A stretch of DNA of 40,240 nt from a virus, in IMG/VR virus record IMGVR_UViG_3300013093_000009, positions 1 to 40,240 of that record; one strand, written 5' to 3'. Each line of letters starts with the position of its first letter. The first letter of the stretch is position 1. Both the position numbers and the translations under genes were made by a program. The notes beneath the pieces were generated by a model, which saw nothing but the letters and a program-made list of their open reading frames with translations, was not told the origin of the DNA and ran no database searches. Below, piece by piece: positions 7,347 through 40,240 of the stretch.

Positions 7347-10300
7347 CTAGTTACCGTACTTGTTTGGCAGTGAAGCCAAAGCGTGTTGAATAAAATATGC
7401 CTGGGTCTTAAATTGCGGGTCCGCGGCGACTTCTTGGCACCAGTTGTACCACTGGTTCTCAAGGCCCGTGGCGCTGCCGTTTCCGCTAATTATTGCCTGC
7501 ACCTTGGACACAGCCGAGTCGTAATTTTCAAGAAGAAACGCAAACTTTTCCCGGTCGGTTTTGGTCATGATGTTTTCTGTAACCAATGGGTCCTTAACCA
7601 AGGAGCGCATTTCGTTAATAGAGTTGATCTCTGCGTTGTACCGAGATGCACCCTGGAAGTTGGCAAGCCACGTTGGGTTCATCGAGCGACCGTAATTCAA
7701 TGCCTGGTCGTTCAACGCCTTGTATTCCTGGTAGCCAATGTTTGTGCCCGGGGCCATTCCGTTACCACCAAAAGCAGGCTGAGCGGCCAAATAGTTGTAG
7801 TAATAGTCATTGCCTGCGGCCACAAGGATTGCGTCCAAGTATTGCTGTGGGGTATCCTTGGCTCGAAGGTTAAGAGAAACCTCAAGCGTGTAGGCCACAG
7901 GCGAGTACTTGCCGTTGCGGCTAATGGTGTAGGCAAAAGCGTACGGGTATTTGGCAGCAAGTTGCTGGCCTTGCACCGTTGACAGAATTGCCGCACTTGA
8001 CACCGTTTCTGGGTACGGCGTGTAATTGCTGGAGCTGTGGGCAACAAGGTCAAAAATGTTGTTGGGGTATTCAACCGCAAACTTATTAGCCGCTTCGGTA
8101 AAGGGCATGCGCGCCGACAGCGCCTGAAATTCTGGGCTCTTTGAGAACTGTTCCTGAATACTTAAAGCCGCAGGGGAAGCAAACGCCAATACGCCCTTGA
8201 CAAGCATCATCATGACAGCTGCACCGCGAGCGTGGTCCAAGAACGTTTGGAAGTTCTGAGGATTGTTGAAGTAGTCAGAAACATACAAGTCAGCTTGTGC
8301 ACGAAGGAACGCAATCTTTTCGTTGGGGGTCCATGGTCTGCCGGTGTTGGGGTTTGTCTGCTCCAACGCTTTTTGGTAGTGCTTCCATGCCAAGTCATAT
8401 TGCTGCGAGTACAGGTTGTCCAACGCATTGTTAAGAACCAAGTTTTCAGTGCTTCGCATAGCAGACGTGTTTAGGTCAGTAATGCCCGCAGCGTTTGCCA
8501 GCGCGACCGAAGCGTCCAAAAGGTTGCGGCCAATGGTGCTTGGAAAGAAGTCACTGTACAAAGACGAGTTGTTTGAGACTGGACCAAGGATTGCCGCCAA
8601 AACTTTTGTGGCCAAAACGCCTGAGCTGGTTGCTCCGCTAAACATCTTTTCGGCAATCTTCAACGGCATTGTGACTAGCGGGCCCCACGATGGGCGGAAC
8701 AAACCAAGGGCACCAGCAGCGCCGCTTTCTGATCCGGTGGGCACAACCGATGCAATTGAACCCGGGTCAATGGAAAGCCCAAAGCCAAGGTGGCCAAATG
8801 CGCCGTTTGTAAAGCTGCCGACGTTGCCGCCAATTACACCAGCGTTGCCCAAGAACGTAGATCCTGGGACAGCAATACTTGGGTTATTGCCGCCAGCCGA
8901 AGCATTGCTAATGTAATTGGTGACACCAAGGCAAAGTTTCAAGTATCGCTCAAACGCGCCTGGGTCATTGCGAAGCACGCGGAAAGCACGACGCCATGCC
9001 TGGTTCTGGGCAAAGTAGAACGGCGCAAGCACGCGCATGTTTACTTCCCACAAGGTCTTGTCTTGTGGGTTGTGAACGTATTTGTGCATGTTAATAAACG
9101 CGTCACGGTCTGCAATCATGTGAGCCGTTGGTTCGTCAATCAAGTTGCGTTCAATAAGCGGGCGCAAACGCTCCATCTGCAAATGCTGTTCAAGCAAGAA
9201 GATTGGTTCGCGAACCATCTTGTTTACAATTGGCCCAAGGACTGCGTCGTGTCCTTTTTCGGCTACACGAGTAATAAGGTCGGACATCGAACCTTCAACA
9301 AGGCCGCTGTGGCCGCCGATCGAAGGGATGTCTTCAGGGGCAAGATTGCCCATCTTTCGGACATCTTCGCGGAAGTCTTCAAGGCCCTTAAGCTTGTCTG
9401 GGTTTGCCGCCTGGGTTACAAGTGCTGGGTGGAAATAGTGGTCAACGTATTGCAACGTGCCATTGTTGTCCTCAAAGTAACCGCTACCAGAAACGCTGGC
9501 AATAGCGTTTTCGGCAATGACGGCAGCCCACTCTTCGTGCGCGTTGCTGCGAGCAAACTTGCTTGTTGGCGGGATGCGGCCCGTGTCGCGCTGGAAACGG
9601 GAAACCTCTTCTGGCGGCAATGCCTCGATGGTTTCAAGAGCCTTCTTTTCCATTGCTGCCCGCAACGCGTCAACTTCAGTTGGCCCTATGTACTTAACGC
9701 CTTGGCGAATAATTTCTTCGCGAGTAAACCCAAATTCATCTTCTGGGCTGGTAATTGCACCGTGAACAACTGCTTGCTGAAGGCCATAATTGTACAGCCA
9801 TTCTTCCATTTCTTTTGAAACAGGAGCAAGCAACGGGTCGTTGGCAATACGAGCAATCTGCATGCGCAAGTCTGACTCGTAATTAGGGGCGCCAGGCATT
9901 GACAATGCAACGCCATTGCGTCCGTGCTTGGTTGACGGAACCCATTCGCCATTGTCGTTTTTTTCAAGAAGGATGCCAGACATTGTCTGCTCAACGGTCT
10001 TTTCATCAAAAACATCGTTCTTGGAACTGTGAACGCCACCGGGCAAGTGTCCATCGTGTCGCATGATAGTGCCGACAAAGTCGTCAAGCATGCGGTTGCG
10101 CTTTGCCTGATCCATGCCAAGAATCAAATTCTTTTGCATGCCTGTAAGGACACCGGCAACAACGTCGCGAATCAGCTTGCCTTCGTACGAATCGCGAACG
10201 TAAGAATTTAATTCTTCCACGCTCATCTTTTGAGGGTCGAGTCCCTGTTTGGCCAAACGGGCAACAACTTCGTCTACCTTTTCACGGAACAAACGAGCGC

Positions 10301-13300
10301 CATACGCTTCATGCTTGGCGATCGAGGCCATGACTTTTGCATCAAAAGATTGCCAGCCGCCAAAACGAAGACTGTTCAACATGGCTTCTGAGGCGCCTAC
10401 GCGCAGGGCCCAGCCACCAGAAAACAAAGCCATTGGCACAAAAGTGCGGCTAAGGAATCGATTGAGGGCGTCAGCCGTGTATTGCCAACCCATGATGTAC
10501 GGGCTGCGCTTGCTGTACAAACGAGCAAGCTCTGTCTGCAAATTGGTTTCCGGTTTTTCGGCAAGAATTTCTTGGAAATTTTTACGGTCAATGTTGGCCG
10601 AACGAATTCTCAAAGGAAGGTCTTCGGAATTGCCTAGGTAGCGGCTTTCCATAAAATTGTCAAAGACATTGTCCAGCAGTTCTGAAGAAAGCTTGTTTTT
10701 CATGCCGCTCAAAACGGAAGCAATAACAGAATGACCAAAATTTATCATTAAGTTTTCTTTGCCCGCTTCGGAAACAATTGGCGACAAAAGGTCCATTGTT
10801 CGTACCGCCAAAGATTCGGCAAAAAATTCGTCAACGCCGTGAAGCCAATAGTTTCGCCCATACGCGCTCATGGTGTAACCGGACAAGCGCGTAAAATCAA
10901 TTGTCTTTGGATCAATCGGGTTGGTTCCGTTTACGTCCAAAATGTGATTGATGTAATCCATTTCCTCGCCATGAGAATGTACCCATCCAAGGGGAACGTT
11001 ATCTTCTGTGTCTTTGTTCATGTAATCCCAAAGCGGGTGTTCCTGGAAAAACTTCTCTCGTGCGCGGTCAAAATCGTTTTCCATTTGCGCAACGTATTCT
11101 TCGGGAAGGTACGTGGAGAGGTGGTGGAACAATTCATGATATACACTGAAATCAAAATTTAACGGGGCTTCAAGTGCGGCGCTGTAAATGTTTAATATTT
11201 TTTGACCAAACATGTACGACGCAAATGCGTCTGGATTGTTGCTACGAACCATAGCAATGACACCCGCAAAAAATTTTGGTCCGATTCGGTTTACAAAATC
11301 AAGAAGTTCTTTTTCGTAATTGTCTGTTTTTTCGGCAAAGAATTTTTCAATAGCGGCCATTTCTTCAGGCGACGACGACTTAAATGTTTCCCGAAGTTTT
11401 TCAAGATCTGCTTTTTTTACAAGATCTTTATGCGTCTCAACAAGGTCTTTAATAAGCCGTTCGCCTTCTGGCGACGTGTCTTGTCGAGCGCGAATAAAAC
11501 TGTCAATTTTTGGAGGCGTGAAAATAAAATCCCGCTTCATTCCTTTGGGCATGTACCCCTTACGAAGCACTTCGCTCAAAGACCCAACATTCCATCGAGC
11601 TTCTTTAAGGTCTTCGGCAAGCCCAGCTAATTCACGCAAACTATAAACCGGAGATGCAAGAGGGCTTTGCATTGAATTTATAAATTGGTTCGTTGCCGAG
11701 ATTTTTCCACGAACCTTTTCAAGCTCGTCCATCAAAAATTGTGGCGACGAAACGTTCAGGTCAAATCCAGAATGGGCGGTAATAACTCTGCTTGAAAAAA
11801 TGCGCGTGTTGTTGAACGCAGCAATTCGGTCTTCAATTTCGCGCTTTTGCTGAAACAAGAAACGCAGCTTTGCTTCAAAAACATTAGCCGCGTGAACAAA
11901 ATGCTCAACTTCGGAAGGCTCGGGCATTGATTCGCTCGCCCCGAATTCGTACATTGGGCTAAGGCCTCTTTTAAGAATTTTTGAAAGTTCGGCTTCGGCT
12001 TCTTCGTAGCCGTCAATAAACTTACCCTTTTTAAGCGGCGGCTCCGTTGTCCACTTTTCAATGTCTTCCCGGTTGTGATCAATGATCATATTTTCGGGTT
12101 CGCCTAATTTACGGGCCCCACCTTCAGACATGGTAATCGCAGATGCATCTTTTTCCCCGGCAATGGCGTGCAACGCTTGAAGCAAGGCTGCACGGGCTTC
12201 TTTGTTCTTTGCCCCAAGGTTGTGGATTGTAAACGACCCGTCTCTTTCGGCAACATAACTAAGAACACCAACCATGCCTTCGATTTCGTCACGGGCAACA
12301 ACAATGTTTGAAGGCAAGCGGCCAAACTGCCGTTGAGCATTAAACCGCTCAAGGGCGCGGGCCATTTGATCCAGGGTTTCGCTTGTGCCGTTAACAACCG
12401 TTCCTTGCATGATTTTTTTAAATTCAGCAGCAAAGTGTTCATTAACAATTTCATGAAGTAAATAAGCGTGGGCAACGTCCGCTGGCGTATCGTTAACGTA
12501 AGCGTTTTTTCCCTGAAGCTTGTCCAGCCATGTTGGGTCATCGGCCAAACGTTCTTTTACATATTCGCGAAATTTTTCAGCGACTTCTTTGGCGCTGCCA
12601 TCTGGGCCAACCTTAAACGGATTGGCCCATTTTGACCCTTCACCAACAAACACAGAGTCTTTAGGAATAGCAAGACCGGGCTTAGTTACATAACCGGCTT
12701 TAAACCCAAGGCCTATTCCATAACCTTTTTCTTTATTGCGAATTGATTCATCAATCAAATGTTTAATAACGTCACCATGGCAAGCCAACGGCGAGCAGTT
12801 GCAGGAAATGTTTTTGCCCTTAAGCGGGTCCAGCCAATCCGGTTCTTCAGCCAAACGCTTTTTTGCGTACTCATAAAACTTTTCAATAACTTCTTCACGG
12901 GTTCCGTCCGGGCCAATCTTAAATGGATTGCCCCATGGCGTTCCTCGCCCAACATATATGGCGTCTTCCGGAGCGTCCTTTTTGTTAAAAACGCCCTTAA
13001 CCGAAATTGCTTCTTTGAACTTTTGACCCATTGTTTTGGGTGAATCGCCGCTTGGGTATTGTGCCCGCTCTTCTGGCGTTAAGGCTTTTTGAAATTCGGA
13101 ACGAATATCAGTAAGCAACTGGCCAAGTTTGTTTTGCCCAGGGGTGCCAGCGCACTTGCCACAGGAACAATCGCCCCACGTATTGTCGTGCCAGGTGTTT
13201 ACCTCAACAAGTTTTGCGTCACCAGTTTGCAACAACAAATCGCGCATGCCCGGTTCGCTAAACTTTTGGCGCACCAAGTTTTTCATTACGTCTTCGCGTA

Positions 13301-16300
13301 TTGAATTCCAATCTTCGCGCAATGGGTTTTTGCGGCCAAGCCTACGTGCAGCATTTGGGTGATTGGCGTTGCGAATTTGTTCGCGCAAGTCTTTGTCGGT
13401 TGTTTTGGCTGCTTGAAATGCGTGCTCTACCGTTGGGTATGTCTTGCCTTCAAACACAACGGGCGACTCATGGAAGTTGGAAAGGAATCTAAATTCGCCC
13501 TTAAAACCGTTTTCTTCTAATTCAATTTGTTTTAGGGTAAGTTCGCGTTTATAATTTTCGGAAGCCTCGCGCAAACGCGTAGCTTGCTGTTTGGTTTCTT
13601 CAACAAAATCGTCATGCTTTTCGGCCGCAACGGGATCGCTAATCTCGGGCTCCGAAGAATAATGGTCAACTTCTCCATTGAAATTTTCTGAATCAAGAAT
13701 TTGCTGTTTTAATTCTTCGGGGTAATCGGTAAAGTCGTACCGATCTTCGGCTTTGACGTTTGCGTAAATATGACGTTCTTTGATGTATGGCTTAGTTGCG
13801 TTTTCAACAATTCCGTCGCGCGAAACACGCGCATACTCCGCCAAACGAAGCTTTTGTTCCAAGCTCAAAAGCCGTGGTTCAATTTCTTTACCTGCCAGCG
13901 TGGTGTACAAAACGCCCGAGATGCGACGCATCTCTTTGGCCAAACCACGAAGTTCTGCGGCACGTGGAATGCGCAGTTCGCCAAGGTGGGTAGAACCAAT
14001 ACCAGCGAATCCTTCAAGGCCAGTCTTGGAGTTGCCCACGCGTGAAAGGACGCGGCCCTCCTTACCGGCTACATACAAGCCGCGATCGCCACCGCCGTCA
14101 AGGCCGGTCAGCTTCATAACTTCTTCCCAGATTTTGTTACCCATGGTGTGGGTCAAAATGCCAAGTTCGCCCTTTTCAAGACCAGCAACGGCGCGACGCA
14201 TGGTGGCGTAATACATTGCCTGGCGGTATGCATTGATGTATTCCTGCGGCCCTTCGGCGTGAAGCAACAAGTCGCCAACAGCCTTAACGGCGTCTTCGTG
14301 CATAAGGGATGAACGCAAAAGGTCCATGATTGCTGGAATGGCGTTAACACTGCCTGGGCGAATAATTTTGTTTTCGATCTTGCCGGTCAGCTCATCAATG
14401 TACGATGAGTCGCGGGTAAAACGCGTGGCCAGCCAACGAAAGAATGCAGCGGTGCCACGAATGCTTTCGTCAGGCAAAGCAAACAACAAAGCGCTGTTGG
14501 GCTTAATGTCAACGCCTGTTTCTTCGCGAATGACTTTCCATACGGACTGAATAAAAGCACCGTCGGAATTAAGCAGATTACCCAGAATGTGAAACCGGCG
14601 TCCAAGGTCGCCCTTTAGTTCTGCCTTGAAAACTTCGTACATGCTCATGGTGGGCATCATGCCATTTACAATGCTGCTGCCTTCAGCTATGTCACGGAAA
14701 ACCGCAAGGACCCCCTCTTCCGTGTTTGCTTCGCCCAGTCGCTTAATAAGCGTTCCAGCCTTAACGCTTTTGTCGGCAGAATCTTGAAACGTGTTGCGGA
14801 ATGTATCCAAGATTTCCGATGCGCTGTGACTGGCAATGTAGTGAATTGCATTGCGCACACGTGCGTATTGCTGGTACGCAAGGTCAACGTCGTCCGCGTT
14901 ACGAATGCCAAGTCCGCTAAACCAAGCACCCAGCTTGCCAGTAAAACCAGCAAACGATCGTGAAGTGTGCAAAACTTTGCCGTACGCGCCCAATGGGTCG
15001 GTACCAAGCCATTTGGTGTAAAAATCGGTCAAACCGGACACCGGAGCGAAGAAAGGGTTGCCCTTGTCGATGCCAAAGTACTGGGCCAACATTTGGCCAT
15101 CAGTGCCAATTATTTTGCCATTTGCGTCATAGGCATTTCCGTCACGTGTCTTATTCCAAAGATCAATCAACGGCTGGTCATTGCTGTTAAGAACATTTTC
15201 TTGATTCACCAAATACATGGCGTTTAAACGAACGCTGGACGTGGCCTTGCCTGCCAATCGAGCGGTTTTCATTAAATAACCCAAAGGGCGGAATGCTGCC
15301 TGCGAAGCAAGGTCCGCCAACTTGTATGCAGTGCCTCGGTCGGTGCCTGCAAACTTGCCCGATTGCAATTCGCGTTCGGCGCCAATCTTAAGGCGCTTTA
15401 AAATTGCCTGCGTGCTGCGTTGTTCTGCGGCTTTAATGGCAGCTTGGGTTTCTTCGTCTAGCGTCTTCCCCGCAGCTTTTGCTGCATTACCCATTGCAAC
15501 CAATCGGCTGTCTTCCGCCATTTGTATTGACGCTTGAAGCGCTTCGGCATTTACCGCGGCAACAGATGCGTCGGTTGACGCGCCATCGGTTGCAAGCCCC
15601 GCAAGGATGGATGGAAGCATGTAGGAAATTGCATAATTCCAACCACGCTGAGCAGCCAACGACTCGGTAAATGCCATTGTGTGCGACATCAGTTGGTATG
15701 CGTTTTGCTGGCTCCACGGATCGATCAGGCGAGTTACGCTAAGCGCAACGTTGTTTGCGGTGTTGTAAGCATCGCCAAGGCCTACAAGTGGATTCGCTTG
15801 AAAACCGTTTGGCCCAAAAAAACCAATAGTGGCAATTTCGTCAGTGGTTAACATTCCTCGCAAAGCAATGTTTTTTCCCCAATCGGCAAGGCCCACAAAG
15901 CCTTGGCCAACCCCACTTACTTTGTCCATAATGTTGTGGCCTATTGACCCCCAGAATCCATACTGGGCTTCATCGGCAGCAGTTTGCTGCACGCTGTTAT
16001 TTAAAACGTTGTATCCGTCTTTAACAACGTTTGTTGCGGCGTCCCACAAACCTGACGGGGCACCTTGCAAAAAATTGCTTGCGCCTCTCCATGCATTTGA
16101 CCACATGCCCGAAACGTCATTTGTGAAGTGGCCCCAACCGCCATCGTTGTTTGCATACCCGTGTACGTATCGACCGATCTGGTTATACGCAGTCAAGTAC
16201 TTAACGGCATTTGAAATCTGGGTAGGGCTTGCATTGTCCATGCGAGCAAGGCTTGCAATTGTTGAAGGGTTCTGGGCAATCAATGGATTGATTGAAGCAA

Positions 16301-16448
16301 TGCGGGCAAGGCCGTGTTGTTGCGTTGGGCTTAGTGCATTCATGGCGTCGGAGTCAATATTCTCCTGCGCCAAAGCAATTGCCTTTTGGCCAATCGGGCT
16401 TGTTGTTGGCGTGTCTTGCTCTAATGGGATTCCATTGATTGAGGGCAT
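7347..16448 (-). CDS. Giant polyvalent virion protein, 3033 aa (NADAR, DUF4326 x2, GNAT-like, metallopeptidase)
   Basis: This gene takes 23% of the genome and lies among virion genes; TAGGAG precedes its ATG. Residues 1-870 and ~1980-3033 are helical with hydrophobic Gly-rich patches, as in ejected internal proteins. In between come: a NADAR domain (~975-1120: FLSNF, TVEHAFQAAK, WGDCSCGKC, NKLGQLL); a DUF4326 domain (~1160-1231: YVGRGTPWGNPF, SCNCSPLACHGD); a second copy (~1258-1330) that has lost all those cysteines; a possible GNAT-like stretch (~1375-1450); and a zincin motif HELFHH at 1771-1776 with a downstream DEFFAES near 1870 supplying the likely third ligand. NADAR enzymes are known to remove ADP-ribose from nucleic acid, so delivery with the genome to counter ADP-ribosylating defence is plausible inference. 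Confidence 0.85.
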   Translation of the reverse strand: MPSINGIPLEQDTPTTSPIGQKAIALAQENIDSDAMNALSPTQQHGLARIASINPLIAQNPSTIASLARMDNASPTQISNAVKYLTAYNQIGRYVHGYANNDGGWGHFTNDVSGMWSNAWRGASNFLQGAPSGLWDAATNVVKDGYNVLNNSVQQTAADEAQYGFWGSIGHNIMDKVSGVGQGFVGLADWGKNIALRGMLTTDEIATIGFFGPNGFQANPLVGLGDAYNTANNVALSVTRLIDPWSQQNAYQLMSHTMAFTESLAAQRGWNYAISYMLPSILAGLATDGASTDASVAAVNAEALQASIQMAEDSRLVAMGNAAKAAGKTLDEETQAAIKAAEQRSTQAILKRLKIGAERELQSGKFAGTDRGTAYKLADLASQAAFRPLGYLMKTARLAGKATSSVRLNAMYLVNQENVLNSNDQPLIDLWNKTRDGNAYDANGKIIGTDGQMLAQYFGIDKGNPFFAPVSGLTDFYTKWLGTDPLGAYGKVLHTSRSFAGFTGKLGAWFSGLGIRNADDVDLAYQQYARVRNAIHYIASHSASEILDTFRNTFQDSADKSVKAGTLIKRLGEANTEEGVLAVFRDIAEGSSIVNGMMPTMSMYEVFKAELKGDLGRRFHILGNLLNSDGAFIQSVWKVIREETGVDIKPNSALLFALPDESIRGTAAFFRWLATRFTRDSSYIDELTGKIENKIIRPGSVNAIPAIMDLLRSSLMHEDAVKAVGDLLLHAEGPQEYINAYRQAMYYATMRRAVAGLEKGELGILTHTMGNKIWEEVMKLTGLDGGGDRGLYVAGKEGRVLSRVGNSKTGLEGFAGIGSTHLGELRIPRAAELRGLAKEMRRISGVLYTTLAGKEIEPRLLSLEQKLRLAEYARVSRDGIVENATKPYIKERHIYANVKAEDRYDFTDYPEELKQQILDSENFNGEVDHYSSEPEISDPVAAEKHDDFVEETKQQATRLREASENYKRELTLKQIELEENGFKGEFRFLSNFHESPVVFEGKTYPTVEHAFQAAKTTDKDLREQIRNANHPNAARRLGRKNPLREDWNSIREDVMKNLVRQKFSEPGMRDLLLQTGDAKLVEVNTWHDNTWGDCSCGKCAGTPGQNKLGQLLTDIRSEFQKALTPEERAQYPSGDSPKTMGQKFKEAISVKGVFNKKDAPEDAIYVGRGTPWGNPFKIGPDGTREEVIEKFYEYAKKRLAEEPDWLDPLKGKNISCNCSPLACHGDVIKHLIDESIRNKEKGYGIGLGFKAGYVTKPGLAIPKDSVFVGEGSKWANPFKVGPDGSAKEVAEKFREYVKERLADDPTWLDKLQGKNAYVNDTPADVAHAYLLHEIVNEHFAAEFKKIMQGTVVNGTSETLDQMARALERFNAQRQFGRLPSNIVVARDEIEGMVGVLSYVAERDGSFTIHNLGAKNKEARAALLQALHAIAGEKDASAITMSEGGARKLGEPENMIIDHNREDIEKWTTEPPLKKGKFIDGYEEAEAELSKILKRGLSPMYEFGASESMPEPSEVEHFVHAANVFEAKLRFLFQQKREIEDRIAAFNNTRIFSSRVITAHSGFDLNVSSPQFLMDELEKVRGKISATNQFINSMQSPLASPVYSLRELAGLAEDLKEARWNVGSLSEVLRKGYMPKGMKRDFIFTPPKIDSFIRARQDTSPEGERLIKDLVETHKDLVKKADLEKLRETFKSSSPEEMAAIEKFFAEKTDNYEKELLDFVNRIGPKFFAGVIAMVRSNNPDAFASYMFGQKILNIYSAALEAPLNFDFSVYHELFHHLSTYLPEEYVAQMENDFDRAREKFFQEHPLWDYMNKDTEDNVPLGWVHSHGEEMDYINHILDVNGTNPIDPKTIDFTRLSGYTMSAYGRNYWLHGVDEFFAESLAVRTMDLLSPIVSEAGKENLMINFGHSVIASVLSGMKNKLSSELLDNVFDNFMESRYLGNSEDLPLRIRSANIDRKNFQEILAEKPETNLQTELARLYSKRSPYIMGWQYTADALNRFLSRTFVPMALFSGGWALRVGASEAMLNSLRFGGWQSFDAKVMASIAKHEAYGARLFREKVDEVVARLAKQGLDPQKMSVEELNSYVRDSYEGKLIRDVVAGVLTGMQKNLILGMDQAKRNRMLDDFVGTIMRHDGHLPGGVHSSKNDVFDEKTVEQTMSGILLEKNDNGEWVPSTKHGRNGVALSMPGAPNYESDLRMQIARIANDPLLAPVSKEMEEWLYNYGLQQAVVHGAITSPEDEFGFTREEIIRQGVKYIGPTEVDALRAAMEKKALETIEALPPEEVSRFQRDTGRIPPTSKFARSNAHEEWAAVIAENAIASVSGSGYFEDNNGTLQYVDHYFHPALVTQAANPDKLKGLEDFREDVRKMGNLAPEDIPSIGGHSGLVEGSMSDLITRVAEKGHDAVLGPIVNKMVREPIFLLEQHLQMERLRPLIERNLIDEPTAHMIADRDAFINMHKYVHNPQDKTLWEVNMRVLAPFYFAQNQAWRRAFRVLRNDPGAFERYLKLCLGVTNYISNASAGGNNPSIAVPGSTFLGNAGVIGGNVGSFTNGAFGHLGFGLSIDPGSIASVVPTGSESGAAGALGLFRPSWGPLVTMPLKIAEKMFSGATSSGVLATKVLAAILGPVSNNSSLYSDFFPSTIGRNLLDASVALANAAGITDLNTSAMRSTENLVLNNALDNLYSQQYDLAWKHYQKALEQTNPNTGRPWTPNEKIAFLRAQADLYVSDYFNNPQNFQTFLDHARGAAVMMMLVKGVLAFASPAALSIQEQFSKSPEFQALSARMPFTEAANKFAVEYPNNIFDLVAHSSSNYTPYPETVSSAAILSTVQGQQLAAKYPYAFAYTISRNGKYSPVAYTLEVSLNLRAKDTPQQYLDAILVAAGNDYYYNYLAAQPAFGGNGMAPGTNIGYQEYKALNDQALNYGRSMNPTWLANFQGASRYNAEINSINEMRSLVKDPLVTENIMTKTDREKFAFLLENYDSAVSKVQAIISGNGSATGLENQWYNWCQEVAADPQFKTQAYFIQHALASLPNKYGN

Positions 16449-21262: not shown

Positions 21263-21300
21263 CACAAAAATCCCCACCAGTTACGGTGGGGATTTTTGTG
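21263..21300. terminator. Strong bidirectional terminator
   Basis: A perfect 16-bp stem (CACAAAAATCCCCACC with its complement) around the six-base loop AGTTAC, with T-runs on both strands. It insulates the virion operon, whose promoter directly abuts it, from upstream transcription. Confidence 0.9.
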
Positions 21301-21412
21301 GAAGGGTTTTGTGTGAGCGTCCTGAGGAGGGACGTTCCCAGTGTATCACGGGTGGGACCGTATGTGTGCAAAGGGGTAAAAAAATTTTTAAAGCACCGGG
21401 GTGCAAACTTGC

Positions 21413-21440
21413 AAAAAGGCCCCGTCCGGAGACGGGGGCC
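21413..21440 (-). terminator. Rho-independent terminator of the 38-aa cysteine-rich gene
   Basis: On the minus strand a GC-rich stem (GGCCCCCGTC / GACGGGGCC, one bulged G, loop TCCG) is followed by TTTTTGC. It lies ~108 bases beyond the stop at 21548. A weaker hairpin at 21393-21404 followed by TTTAAAAATTTTTTT may act as a backup. Confidence 0.75.
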
Positions 21441-21547
21441 AATTTGCATCTATGAGCAAGACGGATCGCAATGTAGGTACAAACATTATATCAGATGGAG
21501 GGCAGAGAAGGGGGGCCAGTGTGCCGCCGAATCTCATACAATTTGAA

Positions 21548-21664
21548 TCAGTAGGCGTCTGGGGCCGGAGGGTTATCGCTAATGGGCTTGCTCTCGAACT
21601 TCGCCGCAAGCGCCGCGCAACCGGGGCAGTTACACATCTTGTCGCAGCCGCAGGTGATACACAT
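21548..21664 (-). CDS. 38-aa cysteine-rich (metal-binding?) peptide
   Basis: This short frame begins MCITCGCDKMCNCPGC, six cysteines in the first sixteen residues. It continues with an Ala-rich helix (AALAAKFESKP) and a Pro-rich tail. AAAGGA lies eight bases before the ATG and a clear terminator follows, so it has the full anatomy of a gene although it is an isolated monocistron in the noncoding block. The cysteine spacing resembles metallothionein or a small zinc/iron-sulfur knuckle. No family is recognised. Confidence 0.7.
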   Translation of the reverse strand: MCITCGCDKMCNCPGCAALAAKFESKPISDNPPAPDAY

Positions 21665-21735
21665 TGTTTTTTCCTTTGTTTAAGAGTACATACAAGTGTA
21701 CCAGCGGTGATCCCAAAAAGTTACGCCAAAAGGTG

Positions 21736-21763
21736 TTGCACCGCGGCCTCGGTGGTGTATCAT
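21736..21763 (+). promoter_or_regulatory. Candidate promoter for the structured noncoding RNA
   Basis: TTGCAC at 21736-21741 and TATCAT at 21758-21763 are spaced by 16 bases, with predicted start near 21770. GTGTATCAYGGGT, which contains this -10, also occurs at 21341-21353, differing by one base. Only the motif is seen; activity is inferred. Confidence 0.4.
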
Positions 21764-21769
21764 GGGTAT

Positions 21770-22632
21770 ATCGCCATTGGCAGCGGTCGTGGGTGGGAGT
21801 CCCCGCGGAGTGTGAGTTCCTAGGAATACTCGCCGCAGTTACCCGGTTAGAGCGGGATTCGGTTGGCGCACCCTGAATGCAATTTGGTTGCTTTGGGGAA
21901 GAGTTGAGGAGTTGCATTGCTCCACAAACAGTCCTTGCGCCGTGCGGAACAGGTATTGCAGACTCTTCGGAGTTGAGGGAAATGCGGGCAGAGTTGTGAG
22001 CAAACGATACTAGCCCCCATAATCCCGAGGTAGAAAACCTTCCGCCGCGGATGAAACCCACTGATAGTACTTTTGATAGATACAACGCATAGCCGCGGCC
22101 GCGACCGCGGCGCCTGGCTTGGTGACGAGAATGACAGTTTTCGGTAGAGGGGATAACAACTCTTGGTAGCAAGACGGGCTCGGCACACACCCGGTCAAGT
22201 CGCTGGTAAACACAGAGTTTTTTTCCACACCAGAATATGTGCGCCTCGCATTTTACGGAACCTACCCGGTTCCATATCCTCCCGGGCAAACTTGGAAGGG
22301 ATACCTTCCAAAGTTTGCAGTTCCGCTTGCAACCAGCCAGAATGAGAAACAAATTGGAGGGGAAGGCGTTGGATTAGCAAGACGGCTAAAGCCGACTAAT
22401 CCGGGATCCTCCCGCTAGTAAGACGCCGACGGGGGCGTCGTCATCTTACTGCACGGGCCCCTCCCGGTTCATGGGTGTCGCCCTAAATTTGCAGCCTGCA
22501 TTTACAACGCACGTTTGCGAGGGCGTAAACCCAACGATCCGTAAGTTCGGGGAAACCCCTCTCTAACGGACTCGGTAGGTTTCACACCCTTTGAGCAAAC
22601 GCACGTTGTTGCAGGCTCAAATTTACCAAATC
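21770..22632 (+). ncRNA. Candidate large structured noncoding RNA (GOLLD/ROOL-like class)
   Basis: No convincing coding frame exists here, but helices follow one another almost without gaps: 21805-21836, 21876-21918, 21961-21974 (GACTC with UUCG loop), 22028-22040 (AGAAA loop), 22092-22111, 22203-22233, 22257-22273, 22286-22318 (14-bp stem, GATA loop), 22371-22402, 22417-22450. A closed multi-helix domain follows at 22485-22624, where AAATTT..GCCTGCA, ACAACG, CGTTTGC and TCCGT each find a partner in nested order around a GGGGAAACCCC hairpin. UUCG, GAAA and other A-rich loops make sense only on the plus strand. Size, complexity and phage context resemble GOLLD and ROOL RNAs, which are known from phages and lake samples. 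I cannot test homology. The ends are estimates. Confidence 0.6.
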
Positions 22633-23060
22633 TCGCAATTTGGACGGGCGCCACCGTCCGGCTGGGAATCGCGGCGAGCGGCCCGGCCCCAAGGGGCCTA
22701 TGGTTTGGTCAGTCCCAAAAGCGGACTGACCGCACCTATGCCGCTACGGCTTGTCCGAGGGGGGGAGTAAACCCCCCCCATCGGCCTACGCCTGTCGCCT
22801 ACGGCCAAACTCACACACAGTTGGTTCCACGGTACGGGATAAATTTCGCGTGTCAATCCGTAAACGGACGGGAGCCTGCATTGCGCCCCTGCGGGGCACA
22901 ATTCTTAGCAGGCTTCTCAGAAACTTTTCACAATTACGGCCCCCCGCAAGCGGGGACCCCCCGGAATTCTGAAAACTTCCTGCGACGCGTTCCGCGCCCT
23001 GTTGACACACGAAATCCACCCCCTTCGCCGCCCGCGCCAACGACGCACTGCGTCGTTGTC
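22633..23060 (+). other. Further hairpin-rich noncoding DNA/RNA after the main RNA domain
   Basis: Stems continue: CTCGC/GCGAG (22632-22678) enclosing GGACGG/CCGTCC (22642-22659); a 9-bp stem GGTCAGTCC at 22707-22731; a G7/C8 hairpin at 22759-22779; AGCCTGC/GCAGGCT (22873-22914) enclosing GCCCC/GGGGC; CCCCGC/GCGGGG (22942-22955); and CAACGACGCA with its exact complement one base apart (23038-23058). This may be the 3' part of the RNA, a second RNA, or an origin/packaging structure. No terminator with a T-run was found. Confidence 0.45.
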
Positions 23061-23090
23061 ACGTTCGCCTCGGCCGTTTGCTAAGCCCCA

Positions 23091-23110
23091 CACGTTCGCT
23101 AGCGAACGTG
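23091..23110. promoter_or_regulatory. Perfect 20-bp palindrome, possible operator
   Basis: CACGTTCGCTAGCGAACGTG is exactly self-complementary, lying 70 bases before the first plus-strand gene. Such a site could bind a dimeric regulator or form a cruciform. No matching regulator gene was identified. Confidence 0.5.
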
Positions 23111-23143
23111 AGTGGCAAAGCAAACGCCGTCCTCCTGTCCCAA

Positions 23144-23166
23144 CTATGCGTGAGATGCGCGCATAG
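23144..23166 (+). promoter_or_regulatory. Hairpin just before the ribosome binding site of the DUF2493 gene
   Basis: CTATGCG and CGCATAG form a 7-bp stem with a nine-base loop, ending about three bases before the purine-rich GGAAAGAGG. It could affect translation initiation of the gene at 23182. Confidence 0.35.
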
Positions 23167-23181
23167 GGAAAGAGGATGAGT

Positions 23182-24285: not shown

Positions 24286-24382
24286 TCAGCGAAGGGTGTC
24301 TTGTATAGAGCAAGATTATCCTTTGCAATCAAAATCTGAAGGGAAAGTCCCGGAAGAAAACAAGTTACCGAGAAAGGGTAAT

Positions 24383-25597
24383 ATGCCTGAAGGCTACGAG
24401 CGTGAACTCGTAAACTCACAAGCGCCCAGTGACGTCATCACTGAATTCGCCACCATCGACGGAGAAACCATGGAGTTCGATTCGGACACCATGACCCGTT
24501 GCGAGCGAACCACCTGCGACAACGCGTGGCTCAACGATTCATATGACTATATGAATGTCTTTACGTTGGGCGGCGAACAGCAGTGGTGCGAAGACTGCGC
24601 CAACCTGCGATCATGGGTTTGTGACTCATGCTCCAACTGGTTCGACTCGTACTACGAAAGTTCCACCTGCGTTGACGACGAATCCAACGTCTGCTCTGAA
24701 TGTGACGACAACACGTGGTACTGCGACAACTGCGAAACCAATCACTGGGATAACCACACTTGCGAGCGCGTAGAACAAGAGTTGATGTCCTACAACTTCA
24801 AGCCACGTCCAATTCACAAGTTCGCCAGCAATGAGATCTGGAATGGAGCCCAAGGGTACCCCACTCCCACTTACGGCATCGAACTTGAGTCGGAAAACGT
24901 AACACACCAGTTGAACGAAGCAATCGCCGCGTTCCGCACGCACTACACGATGGACGACTTCTACCTCAAGTCGGACGGCTCGCTGTCCTACGGCATGGAG
25001 ATTGTCAGCCACCCTCGGTCGCTTGCGTCGTGGCGGGAAATTGCTCCCGAACTGGCCGTAGCGCTCAAGGAATTGAGCGGTCTCGGTCAGCGCGCTTGGT
25101 CGCAAACTCGTGCTGGTTTGCACATCCACGTTGGACGTAAGAACTTCACCACCAGCCACGCGGCTCGTTTCGTGATGTTGTTTGCGCGCAACGCAGAAGA
25201 CTGGATCCGTCTCGCCAACCGCAAGACCTCGTACGCGTCGTTCAGCGGAATCGAAGGGGCTGCCGTCATGAAGGTCAAAAACCCAACGTGGGCTGCTCAC
25301 TCCGACGCCGTCAACACTGGCGCCAACGGTGGAACAACGATCGAAATTCGTATCTTCCGTCCATCGCTGTCAGTCGGCCGCGTAATCGGTTCAATTGAGT
25401 TGGTCGATGCAGCAATTGCGTACACGCGCAACATGACCGCATACGATGCCATCCGCGGGGCTCTGGCCTACGACGAGTTCAAGAAGTACGTCATGTCGTG
25501 CGACAACTGGCCACTGGCCAAGAACATCATGCGTGGCTTGCGCTTCAACATGGAAATTCTCCCGCCCGACAATCGTGGAGACCGCTCATGTGCGTGA
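24383..25597 (+). CDS. Putative amidoligase with N-terminal cysteine-rich zinc modules
   Basis: This 404-residue protein starts at ATG 24383, preceded by GAGAAAGGG. A longer frame from GTG 24296 lacks a ribosome site. Residues 40-127 hold a dozen cysteines, mostly in CxxC pairs (69/72, 80/83, 104/107, 114/117), which look like stacked zinc ribbons. From ~164 the amidoligase-family pattern appears: YGIELESE (164-171), KSDGSLSYGMEIVSHP (196-211) and RAGLHIHVG (243-251). This family is related to glutamine-synthetase-fold COOH-NH2 ligases that use ATP to form amide bonds. It overlaps the downstream amidotransferase gene by ten bases, suggesting a joint reaction. The substrate is unknown. Confidence 0.8.
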   Translation: MPEGYERELVNSQAPSDVITEFATIDGETMEFDSDTMTRCERTTCDNAWLNDSYDYMNVFTLGGEQQWCEDCANLRSWVCDSCSNWFDSYYESSTCVDDESNVCSECDDNTWYCDNCETNHWDNHTCERVEQELMSYNFKPRPIHKFASNEIWNGAQGYPTPTYGIELESENVTHQLNEAIAAFRTHYTMDDFYLKSDGSLSYGMEIVSHPRSLASWREIAPELAVALKELSGLGQRAWSQTRAGLHIHVGRKNFTTSHAARFVMLFARNAEDWIRLANRKTSYASFSGIEGAAVMKVKNPTWAAHSDAVNTGANGGTTIEIRIFRPSLSVGRVIGSIELVDAAIAYTRNMTAYDAIRGALAYDEFKKYVMSCDNWPLAKNIMRGLRFNMEILPPDNRGDRSCA

Positions 25598-26493
25598 TGT
25601 GCGTAGGAACGACCGCCAATGAACGGCCGACACGCGCTAACCTCGTCGTTAGTTGCATCAACAACCCAGACGGCTTCGGCTGGGGAATCGTGTACGACGC
25701 ACAAGTCGAAGGAACACCAACCCGTCGACTCATGGCAAGCCACTCGATGACGTCCGAAAGCGCCATCGATTCGTACTTCGCGGCACTCGACCAGTTGGGC
25801 GAAGCAGTTGTGGGACACCTGTTCCACGCTCGCATCGCCACACGCGGTGGGGTTCACCTGAAAGGCTGTCACCCATTCTGGGTACCAGAAGGTACGCGTG
25901 AGTACGACACCAGTGCGTTGCTTGCACACAACGGAATGCTTGGCTTGAGCATCCCCAAGAACGACCAGCGGGTTGACTCGCAGGTCTTTGCGGAGGATGT
26001 GCTGCCAATGTTCGGTGGCGTCGAATCGCTGAACAAGCCGTACGTGTGGGACATCCTCAACGGTTACGTTGAGGGCGAACGCTCCAAGGTGGTAATTCTC
26101 AACACCATCTTCGAAGAGTCACCTGTCATCATCTTGGGCGAAAGCCTCGGATCGTGGGACAAGAACACCGGGCTCTGGTGGTCTAACACCTCATGGTGCA
26201 GCACTCCTTCGTATCGCACGCCAGCAAACGTGACCTACGGGTCGCGAATGCCAGCACGCGAGAGCACTTGGTCAGACTACGACATGTTTGAGTCAAAGTC
26301 AACCATGACCGAAGAAGAGTACGAAGAGTTGTTTGGCGGAATGGCATGCCTTGACACAACCTGCCCCGGCTGGGTTCTCCCAGAAGACGGACAGTTGTGC
26401 TTGGAGTGCGGCGTCTGCCAAATGTGCCTCGACACGTGGGATGAGTGTATTTGCGAAGACATTCGCGAATCACTGCCCACGGAAAAGCCATAA
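25588..26493 (+). CDS. Class II (Ntn-type) glutamine amidotransferase with cysteine-rich tail
   Basis: The start at 25588 gives MCVMCVGT, putting the catalytic Cys at position 2 after Met removal; upstream ATGs would bury it. Family signatures follow in order: NPDGFGWG (26-33), HARIATRGG (80-88), CHPF (94-97) and HNG (114-116). These correspond to glutamine binding and the oxyanion hole in YafJ-like GAT-II domains. Residues ~260-292 carry about eight cysteines (CLDTTC, CLECGVCQMC, CIC), a probable zinc module echoing the partner's. It would hydrolyse glutamine and supply ammonia, presumably to the amidoligase. There is no linked synthase domain. Confidence 0.85.
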   Translation: MCVMCVGTTANERPTRANLVVSCINNPDGFGWGIVYDAQVEGTPTRRLMASHSMTSESAIDSYFAALDQLGEAVVGHLFHARIATRGGVHLKGCHPFWVPEGTREYDTSALLAHNGMLGLSIPKNDQRVDSQVFAEDVLPMFGGVESLNKPYVWDILNGYVEGERSKVVILNTIFEESPVIILGESLGSWDKNTGLWWSNTSWCSTPSYRTPANVTYGSRMPARESTWSDYDMFESKSTMTEEEYEELFGGMACLDTTCPGWVLPEDGQLCLECGVCQMCLDTWDECICEDIRESLPTEKP

Positions 26494-39736: not shown

Positions 39737-40240
39737 TACGCCACCGCCACACAACGCCACTTAGATGTGGCACCGTTGTAGATAAAGCCAATGGTAAGCG
39801 GAAGCGTTGTTGAACCGTTGGACGAAGTCGGCACGGAAACAGTCGAGTTTTCTGTGTTGTTGAAAGACAACGTCACGGAAGAGGCGGAGTAGTCATAGAA
39901 GCGAACGATTGATTGCATGCCATCAACAGCACTTGTGGTCGACATGGTAATCGTTACAGACAAAGCGGCGTTGTTCGTTACCTTGGTTGAGGTGTACGAT
40001 GATGGCGTGACAGTGGCCGCCTGCGAAGAAACAGTTACCGAGCCAACGCTGGGGGCCAGCACGTTTGACGTGACGCTGGTGGCCGTAGCAACACCAAGAG
40101 TAGGCGTGGTGAGCGTGGGGCTGGTGGCGAACACTGACGCGCCGCTTCCTGTGATGCCGTTGAAGGGGCCGACGAGGGTGTACCAGATGCCGTTGAAGTA
40201 TTGCAGAACGTAGTCGGTGTAGAGGTAAGGGAGGCTGAAC
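39736..40240 (-). CDS. Collagen-like tail fibre, C-terminal part
   Basis: This is the continuation of the fibre that starts at 1745; bases 40130-40240 duplicate 1-111. The frame matches exactly across the join (GASVFATSP spans it). The final ~130 residues are beta-rich with repeated short Thr/Ser/Val strands (GVATATSVTSNVLAPSVGSV; IVRFYDYSASSVTLSFNN) and end in FIYNGATSKWRCVAVA, a typical fibre C-terminal pattern. It is the last part to be translated and probably carries trimerisation or receptor-contact surface. Confidence 0.85.
   Translation of the reverse strand, partial: FSLPYLYTDYVLQYFNGIWYTLVGPFNGITGSGASVFATSPTLTTPTLGVATATSVTSNVLAPSVGSVTVSSQAATVTPSSYTSTKVTNNAALSVTITMSTTSAVDGMQSIVRFYDYSASSVTLSFNNTENSTVSVPTSSNGSTTLPLTIGFIYNGATSKWRCVAVA
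40130..40240. repeat. Terminal direct repeat, copy 2
   Basis: Identical to bases 1-111, marking the point where the circular sequence was opened. Confidence 0.95.

Follow-up and report, generated by a model that had tools for sequence, protein, structure and literature searches.

A probable new family of large structured non-coding RNAs beside the terminase genes of WhiB-encoding phages

Between a small, possibly holin-like gene on the minus strand and a YspA/SLOG gene on the plus strand, the viral genome IMGVR_UViG_3300013093_000009 carries a block (21278–23176) in which no recognisable gene is present. A sequence-only reading had proposed a large ornate non-coding RNA on the plus strand at 21770–23060, and had asked whether it is GOLLD, ROOL or a new RNA. 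To our knowledge, large phage RNAs with an elaborate structure fall into very few classes, two of which, GOLLD and ROOL, form enigmatic cages.

The window, i.e., the whole stretch of DNA that was analyzed (40,240 bases), has an exact 111-bp direct terminal repeat (1–111 and 40130–40240), and the genome is therefore probably complete. Its genes include those for terminase, a portal-like protein, a major head protein, WhiB, SSB and an ERF recombinase. The presence of WhiB and a weak similarity of the terminase to that of Streptomyces phages suggest an actinobacterial host, and the phage group to which this genome belongs (~40-kb, WhiB-encoding) probably infects actinobacteria. Within the structural gene cluster we observed a 3033-aa protein with NADAR and DUF4326 domains (7347–16448, minus strand); in a possible virion protein, the NADAR domain could provide counter-defence against ADP-ribosylation.

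Homologues were collected by a terminase-guided scan of IMG/VR, which yielded 80 loci, and by an independent DNA-pattern scan that added further contigs. The comparison set comprised about 100 fetched loci, with 41 distinct RNAs analyzed over most of their length, which is about 550–700 nt in the relatives. A conserved element matching ~21769–21870 was identified in the window and in 48 fetched upstream regions; with the contigs of the pattern scan, the combined total is 45 distinct element sequences. Box B (Table 1) is present in all 41 element sequences that are long enough, 300–600 nt from the start, and a scan of the collection with the box B pattern alone returned 25 stretches, all on contigs of this RNA family. 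Boxes A and B always co-occur in the element-based and the box-B-based scans, and the order of the conserved boxes is constant. Covariance model R1 added a remote member, L058 (E = 4.7e-8), and matched L056 weakly (E = 0.32), the latter being backed by an intact box B and a P5 helix GCCCGUG/CACGGGC. The occurrence of the RNA follows the terminase lineage to about 71% identity, and no relative below this value was found to carry it; for terminase relatives at about 59–71% identity no credible covariance-model match was obtained with filters off. Three members were used as nucleotide queries against 50,697 phage records and yielded no meaningful match, and pattern scans of GTDB genomes did not find the RNA, in both cases at the sensitivity used. 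One 65-kb contig, IMGVR_UViG_3300025400_000015 (loci L004 and L005), carries two copies of the terminase, one 99% and the other 91% identical to that of the window, each with an RNA; it is either two phages joined or a chimeric assembly.

Table 1. Features of the predicted RNA gene and adjoining DNA (positions in the window).
Feature	Position	Strand	Remarks
Extended -10 promoter element TGTATCAT (TG-TANNNT)	21756–21763	+	6 nt before first helix
Predicted RNA gene, about 650 nt	21769–22415	+	both ends inferred; 3' end less certain
P1	21770–21774 with 21783–21787	+	92% of cells paired; double changes in 4 of 5 pairs; in blind scan
P2, 7-nt loop UGGGAGU	21791–21793 with 21801–21803	+	loop fits T-loop pattern
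P3	21805–21808 with 21833–21836	+	100% paired; 3 of 4 pairs double-changed; in blind scan
P3b	21814–21817 with 21828–21831	+	96% paired; clade-specific insert in apical loop
P4, invariant 7-nt loop GUUAGAG	21842–21845 with 21853–21856	+	100% paired; 3 of 4 pairs double-changed; in blind scan
P5, encloses S2 hairpin	21864–21870 with 21936–21942	+	links first element to next
S2 hairpin	21903–21929	+	outer stem 21903–21905 with 21927–21929; inner stem 21908–21911 with 21920–21923; internal loop GA/ACA
S3 hairpin ACUC-UUCG-GAGU	21962–21973	+	UUCG loop; apical stem varies among relatives
Conserved motif CUGAUAGUACUUUUGAUAG (about TGAYAGNNNTTTTGA)	22061–22079	+	between S3 and box B in most homologues
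Box B, GAGAAUGACAGUU...GGAUA...CUCGGCANACACCCGGUCA	22122–22197	+	sequence conserved
Box C motif GGAGGGGAAGGCGUUGGAUUAGC	22356–22378	+	last conserved block before homology break; recognisable in most homologues
Lineage-specific stretch rich in hairpins and palindromes	22416–23175		folds about equally on both strands

Evidence for a structured RNA comes from the helices at the 5' end. In alignment A1, which holds 33 sequences, 20 pairs were proposed for five helices; 97.1% of their cells are paired, vs 34–52% when the partner is slid by 1–3 columns, and 14 of the 20 pairs show double changes. Covariation was assessed with a G-test with APC, for which the null replays substitutions on a FastTree tree. 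Six pairs reached E below 0.05 in this tree-aware test, all of them 100% canonical and located in P2, P3, P4 and P5. The list is headed by P2, of which the center pair is G-C in 17 and C-G in 15 sequences and is 100% paired; pair 21842–21856 of P4 is also among the six. All column pairs were also scanned blindly for stems of 3 bp or more in which two or more pairs are double-changed, and this blind scan returned five compatible helices only: P1, P3, P4, P5 and the outer stem of S2.

Helix P5 forms seven or eight perfect pairs in 39 of 39 sequences, even though the bases at six of its seven pairs differ from one sequence to another. The window has TGGCGCA/TGCGCCG, and elsewhere we find GAACACG/CGTGTTC, TTGTCGCG/CGCGACAG, GGCCACG/CGTGGCC and GAGCATG/CATGCTC. 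In a set of 30 sequences, all 210 cells are paired, with six of the seven pairs double-changed, vs only 16–50% for a slid partner. The S2 hairpin enclosed by P5 may be an exchangeable module. Its outer stem is paired in 80 of 81 cells, with double changes in all three pairs, and its inner stem in 84%. Two unlike S2 hairpins (GUCGAGGC..GCCACAGAC vs GUCCAAGUAC..CGCAUCGGAC) occur in otherwise similar RNAs, such as those of L022 and L124, and the hairpin is absent in a few relatives (L019, L025, L092), suggesting recombination of RNA modules. Together with the clade-specific inserts in P3, these swaps resemble an exchange of peripheral modules around a conserved core. The S3 region has a higher complementarity of its own than with swapped partners (none of 300 swaps was as high), which is support at the level of the family, as the scoring windows clipped the stem of the window sequence itself.

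Covariation is proven for the first ~175 nt, and the later boxes are recognised by sequence conservation only. Within box B no covariation was shown, and since both box B and the part from S3 to box C are conserved without proven pairing, the secondary structure given here is only a partial one. Around box C, a closing hairpin was convincing by eye and was dropped, as own and swapped complementarity were equal (5.92 vs 5.97). Box B was also considered as a promoter and rejected, the would-be -10 lacking the final T in many sequences.

The same helices indicate the strand. Among the helix cells in 21769–21942, read on the plus strand, 71 are G-U and 4 are A-C, and the RNA is assigned to the plus strand on this ground. 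Every reading frame in the homologous core is closed in relatives and no frame is conserved, in line with the absence of a gene that had been noted for the block. An antisense frame (21630–22352, minus strand) was rejected: it has no PHROGs match and is open only in the window and L004. Loops named earlier were found in place (UUCG at 21966–21969, AGAAA at 22032–22036 and GATA at 22300–22303), and the claim of a large ornate plus-strand RNA is strongly supported by the covariation and the G-U asymmetry.

The folding energy on which that claim had leaned proved a poor guide. A 991-nt stretch does fold better than shuffled sequences, as predicted (z = -7.0), and the minus strand folds even better (z = -10.5), so that the strand could not be read from folding. 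The conserved part (21766–22200) folds in an ordinary fashion (z about +1.4 to -1.3), as do most cores of 21 relatives. The excess lies in 22200–23175 and is about equal on both strands (22420–22640, z = -9.0 plus and -9.8 minus), so that neither the RNA nor its strand can be told from fold energy. The dense hairpins that had been taken as evidence (z about -9) are mostly in the lineage-specific 22420–23175, and poor folding energy, put forward as a ground for refutation, would have wrongly rejected the true RNA core. Used alone, fold-energy z-scores would here have picked the wrong stretch and rejected the real RNA.

With respect to the ends of the RNA, the 5' end is placed at ~21769 on the basis of the -10 box and the first helix. 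A TANNNT box at a fixed distance before P1 was found in 36 of 41 homologues by pattern search and in two more by eye (L018, L035); it is mostly preceded by TG or TGN, with a variable spacing further upstream. Of the promoter-like pair suggested upstream, the extended -10 box ending at 21763 is borne out, and no -35 box could be established. A GTTACG-like motif at ~21720 and homologous positions is conserved upstream of the -10 box; as its spacing to that box varies, it is not a plain -35, and it is possibly an activator site.

At the other end, close RNAs in several clades (L027/L030, L063/L099, L019/L025 and L042/L048/L051) lose homology 9–60 nt past box C, which we take as the 3' boundary of the RNA; in the pairs L043/L044, L012/L022 and L013/L014 similarity continues farther. 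In the window the end near 22415 is an extrapolation, because its only close relatives (L003, L004) stay alike beyond this point. Position 21770, given as the start in the sequence-only reading, is the first base of the first helix, and its 3' end lies about 650 nt too far. The stretch 22416–23175, which has homologues only in the near-identical contigs L003 and L004, is probably outside the conserved RNA and may be a DNA-level element. It includes an inverted repeat (23075–23126) whose two 26-nt arms abut directly, and the supposed closed domain at 22485–22624 is indeed a long imperfect inverted repeat, again with no homologue outside near-identical contigs.

On the strand opposite to terminase and late genes, the RNA adjoins the terminase side in the relatives examined, and does so in nearly every close relative that is long enough to tell, with genes inserted between RNA and terminase in some. 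Contigs that lack the RNA are mostly truncated before the site; a possible exception is L040, which is perhaps without it, as its homology to L036 ends upstream of the site. Downstream of the RNA, the kind and direction of the genes vary among relatives. In the window, an amidoligase-like gene and a class-II glutamine amidotransferase-like gene are adjacent (24296–26493, plus strand; sub-threshold Pfam matches), and their relatives sit near the RNA in both orientations; a gene related to the amidoligase-like one (24296–25597) is present in 17 loci, on either strand.

Taken together, comparison among the relatives shows a plus-strand RNA structure under selection, non-coding, at a fixed locus and in a fixed orientation, and with a sharp 3' limit in several clades. 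The region ~21769–22415 is therefore, in our judgement, quite probably the gene of a stand-alone, trans-acting structured RNA, forming a new family in one group of ~40-kb WhiB-encoding phages.

Because the terminase adjoins the RNA, the main functional rival is a packaging RNA that would act with the neighboring terminase, likewise in trans, in a role like that of the phi29 pRNA. The latter is also the product of a phage RNA gene, and its constant location next to the holin-like and terminase genes of carrier phages, in the case of the RNA described here, together with the limit at about 71% terminase identity, would agree with such a role. The adjacency may nevertheless be simple synteny, and genes do intervene in some relatives. 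Moreover, the phi29 pRNA measures 120–174 nt; the RNA described here is about four times longer, lies on the strand opposite to the terminase, and has neither an Rfam match nor a known link to the prohead. We consider a packaging role unlikely.

It appears very unlikely that the RNA is a long leader acting in cis on a downstream gene, or a riboswitch-like 5' region of that gene. Such a role could be suspected from the plus-strand YspA/SLOG gene that follows in the window and from the P2 loop, which fits the pattern of a T-loop (U, G or U, N, R, A, N, U, closed by a short stem that covaries) and resembles modules of tRNA and cobalamin riboswitches. This likeness is that of a local motif only, as the RNA has no tRNA match (ARAGORN) or riboswitch match (Rfam). 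The first sizeable gene downstream is encoded on the opposite strand in many relatives, and the downstream genes are unlike in kind; this variation speaks against both a leader role and an operon with the amidoligase-like gene. In the window about 760 nt of unrelated hairpins separate the RNA from the gene, and homology stops just past box C whatever gene comes next.

That the RNA is a divergent GOLLD or ROOL missed by the covariance models is highly improbable. GOLLD was first named after lake samples and forms a 14-mer cage, and ROOL forms an octameric cage. Size, phage origin, extensive structure and variable peripheral parts are shared with both. Like ROOL, the RNA is phage-encoded, stand-alone, extensively covarying, similar in length and without a protein product; like GOLLD, it is large and has one conserved and one variable part. 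ROOL env-120 measures 659 nt and many GOLLD RNAs are over 800 nt, both often lie near tRNA islands (frequently, not universally, for GOLLD), and a structural RNA particle has been proposed for both (PMC12286853). In contrast, ARAGORN found no tRNA in the 40-kb window, and the RNA is shorter than GOLLD and conserved at the 5' end and in two later boxes, not at the 3' end.

The question of GOLLD, ROOL or a new RNA was addressed by running the Rfam 15 models, GOLLD and ROOL included. The window gave no match at the gathering score, and at E up to 10 neither GOLLD nor ROOL appeared and no other match was credible. The outcome at E up to 10 was the same for the homologues L087, L109 and L048, and 13 loci gave no GOLLD or ROOL at E up to 0.5. 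Self-splicing introns, RNase P RNA, tmRNA, riboswitches and other Rfam families gave no credible match either, permissive thresholds yielding chance matches. The one real Rfam match is a type II hammerhead ribozyme in L124 (3071–3132, plus strand; above gathering at 48.3 bits), immediately upstream of a small open frame; it lies about 1 kb downstream of the 5' end of the RNA, and outside it. Searches of the open-access literature revealed no account of such an RNA family in freshwater actinophages, which is weak evidence given that restriction. The RNA at 21769–22415 has the features of a large ornate phage non-coding RNA (stand-alone, several hundred nucleotides, extensive covarying structure, no protein), and we file it as a new family among these, distinct from GOLLD and ROOL.

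Finally, a DNA-level element such as a replication origin, packaging site or recombination hot spot, which the equal folding of both strands of 22416–23175 and its inverted repeat might suggest, is hardly credible for the RNA region given its excess of G-U over A-C cells and the conserved -10 box at its 5' end.

Under the preferred reading of a stand-alone RNA, transcription would start at an extended -10 promoter belonging to the RNA gene itself and would run against the direction of the late genes. The transcript is predicted to fold into a compact core, with the T-loop-like hairpin, the 7-bp helix around a swappable hairpin module and the conserved boxes, surrounded by variable peripheral hairpins. 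Action in trans is inferred from the next downstream gene, which varies in kind and direction among relatives. The least certain step, possible though doubtful, is that the RNA, by analogy with GOLLD and ROOL, might form a stable structural particle, with or without a phage protein as partner, that would be produced in the course of infection and would scaffold or sequester something.

Slightly more doubtful still is that the family represents a new class of RNA-only particles unrelated in sequence to GOLLD and ROOL; if so, phages would have evolved RNA assemblies more than once, in this case away from tRNA islands and next to packaging genes. Across dozens of related phages, natural selection has kept the shape of this RNA and not its letters. 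The finding provides an RNA family that is unrelated in sequence to GOLLD and ROOL and that nearly all of the close relatives open to checking carry, with an alignment and helices that are ready for structure and deletion tests.
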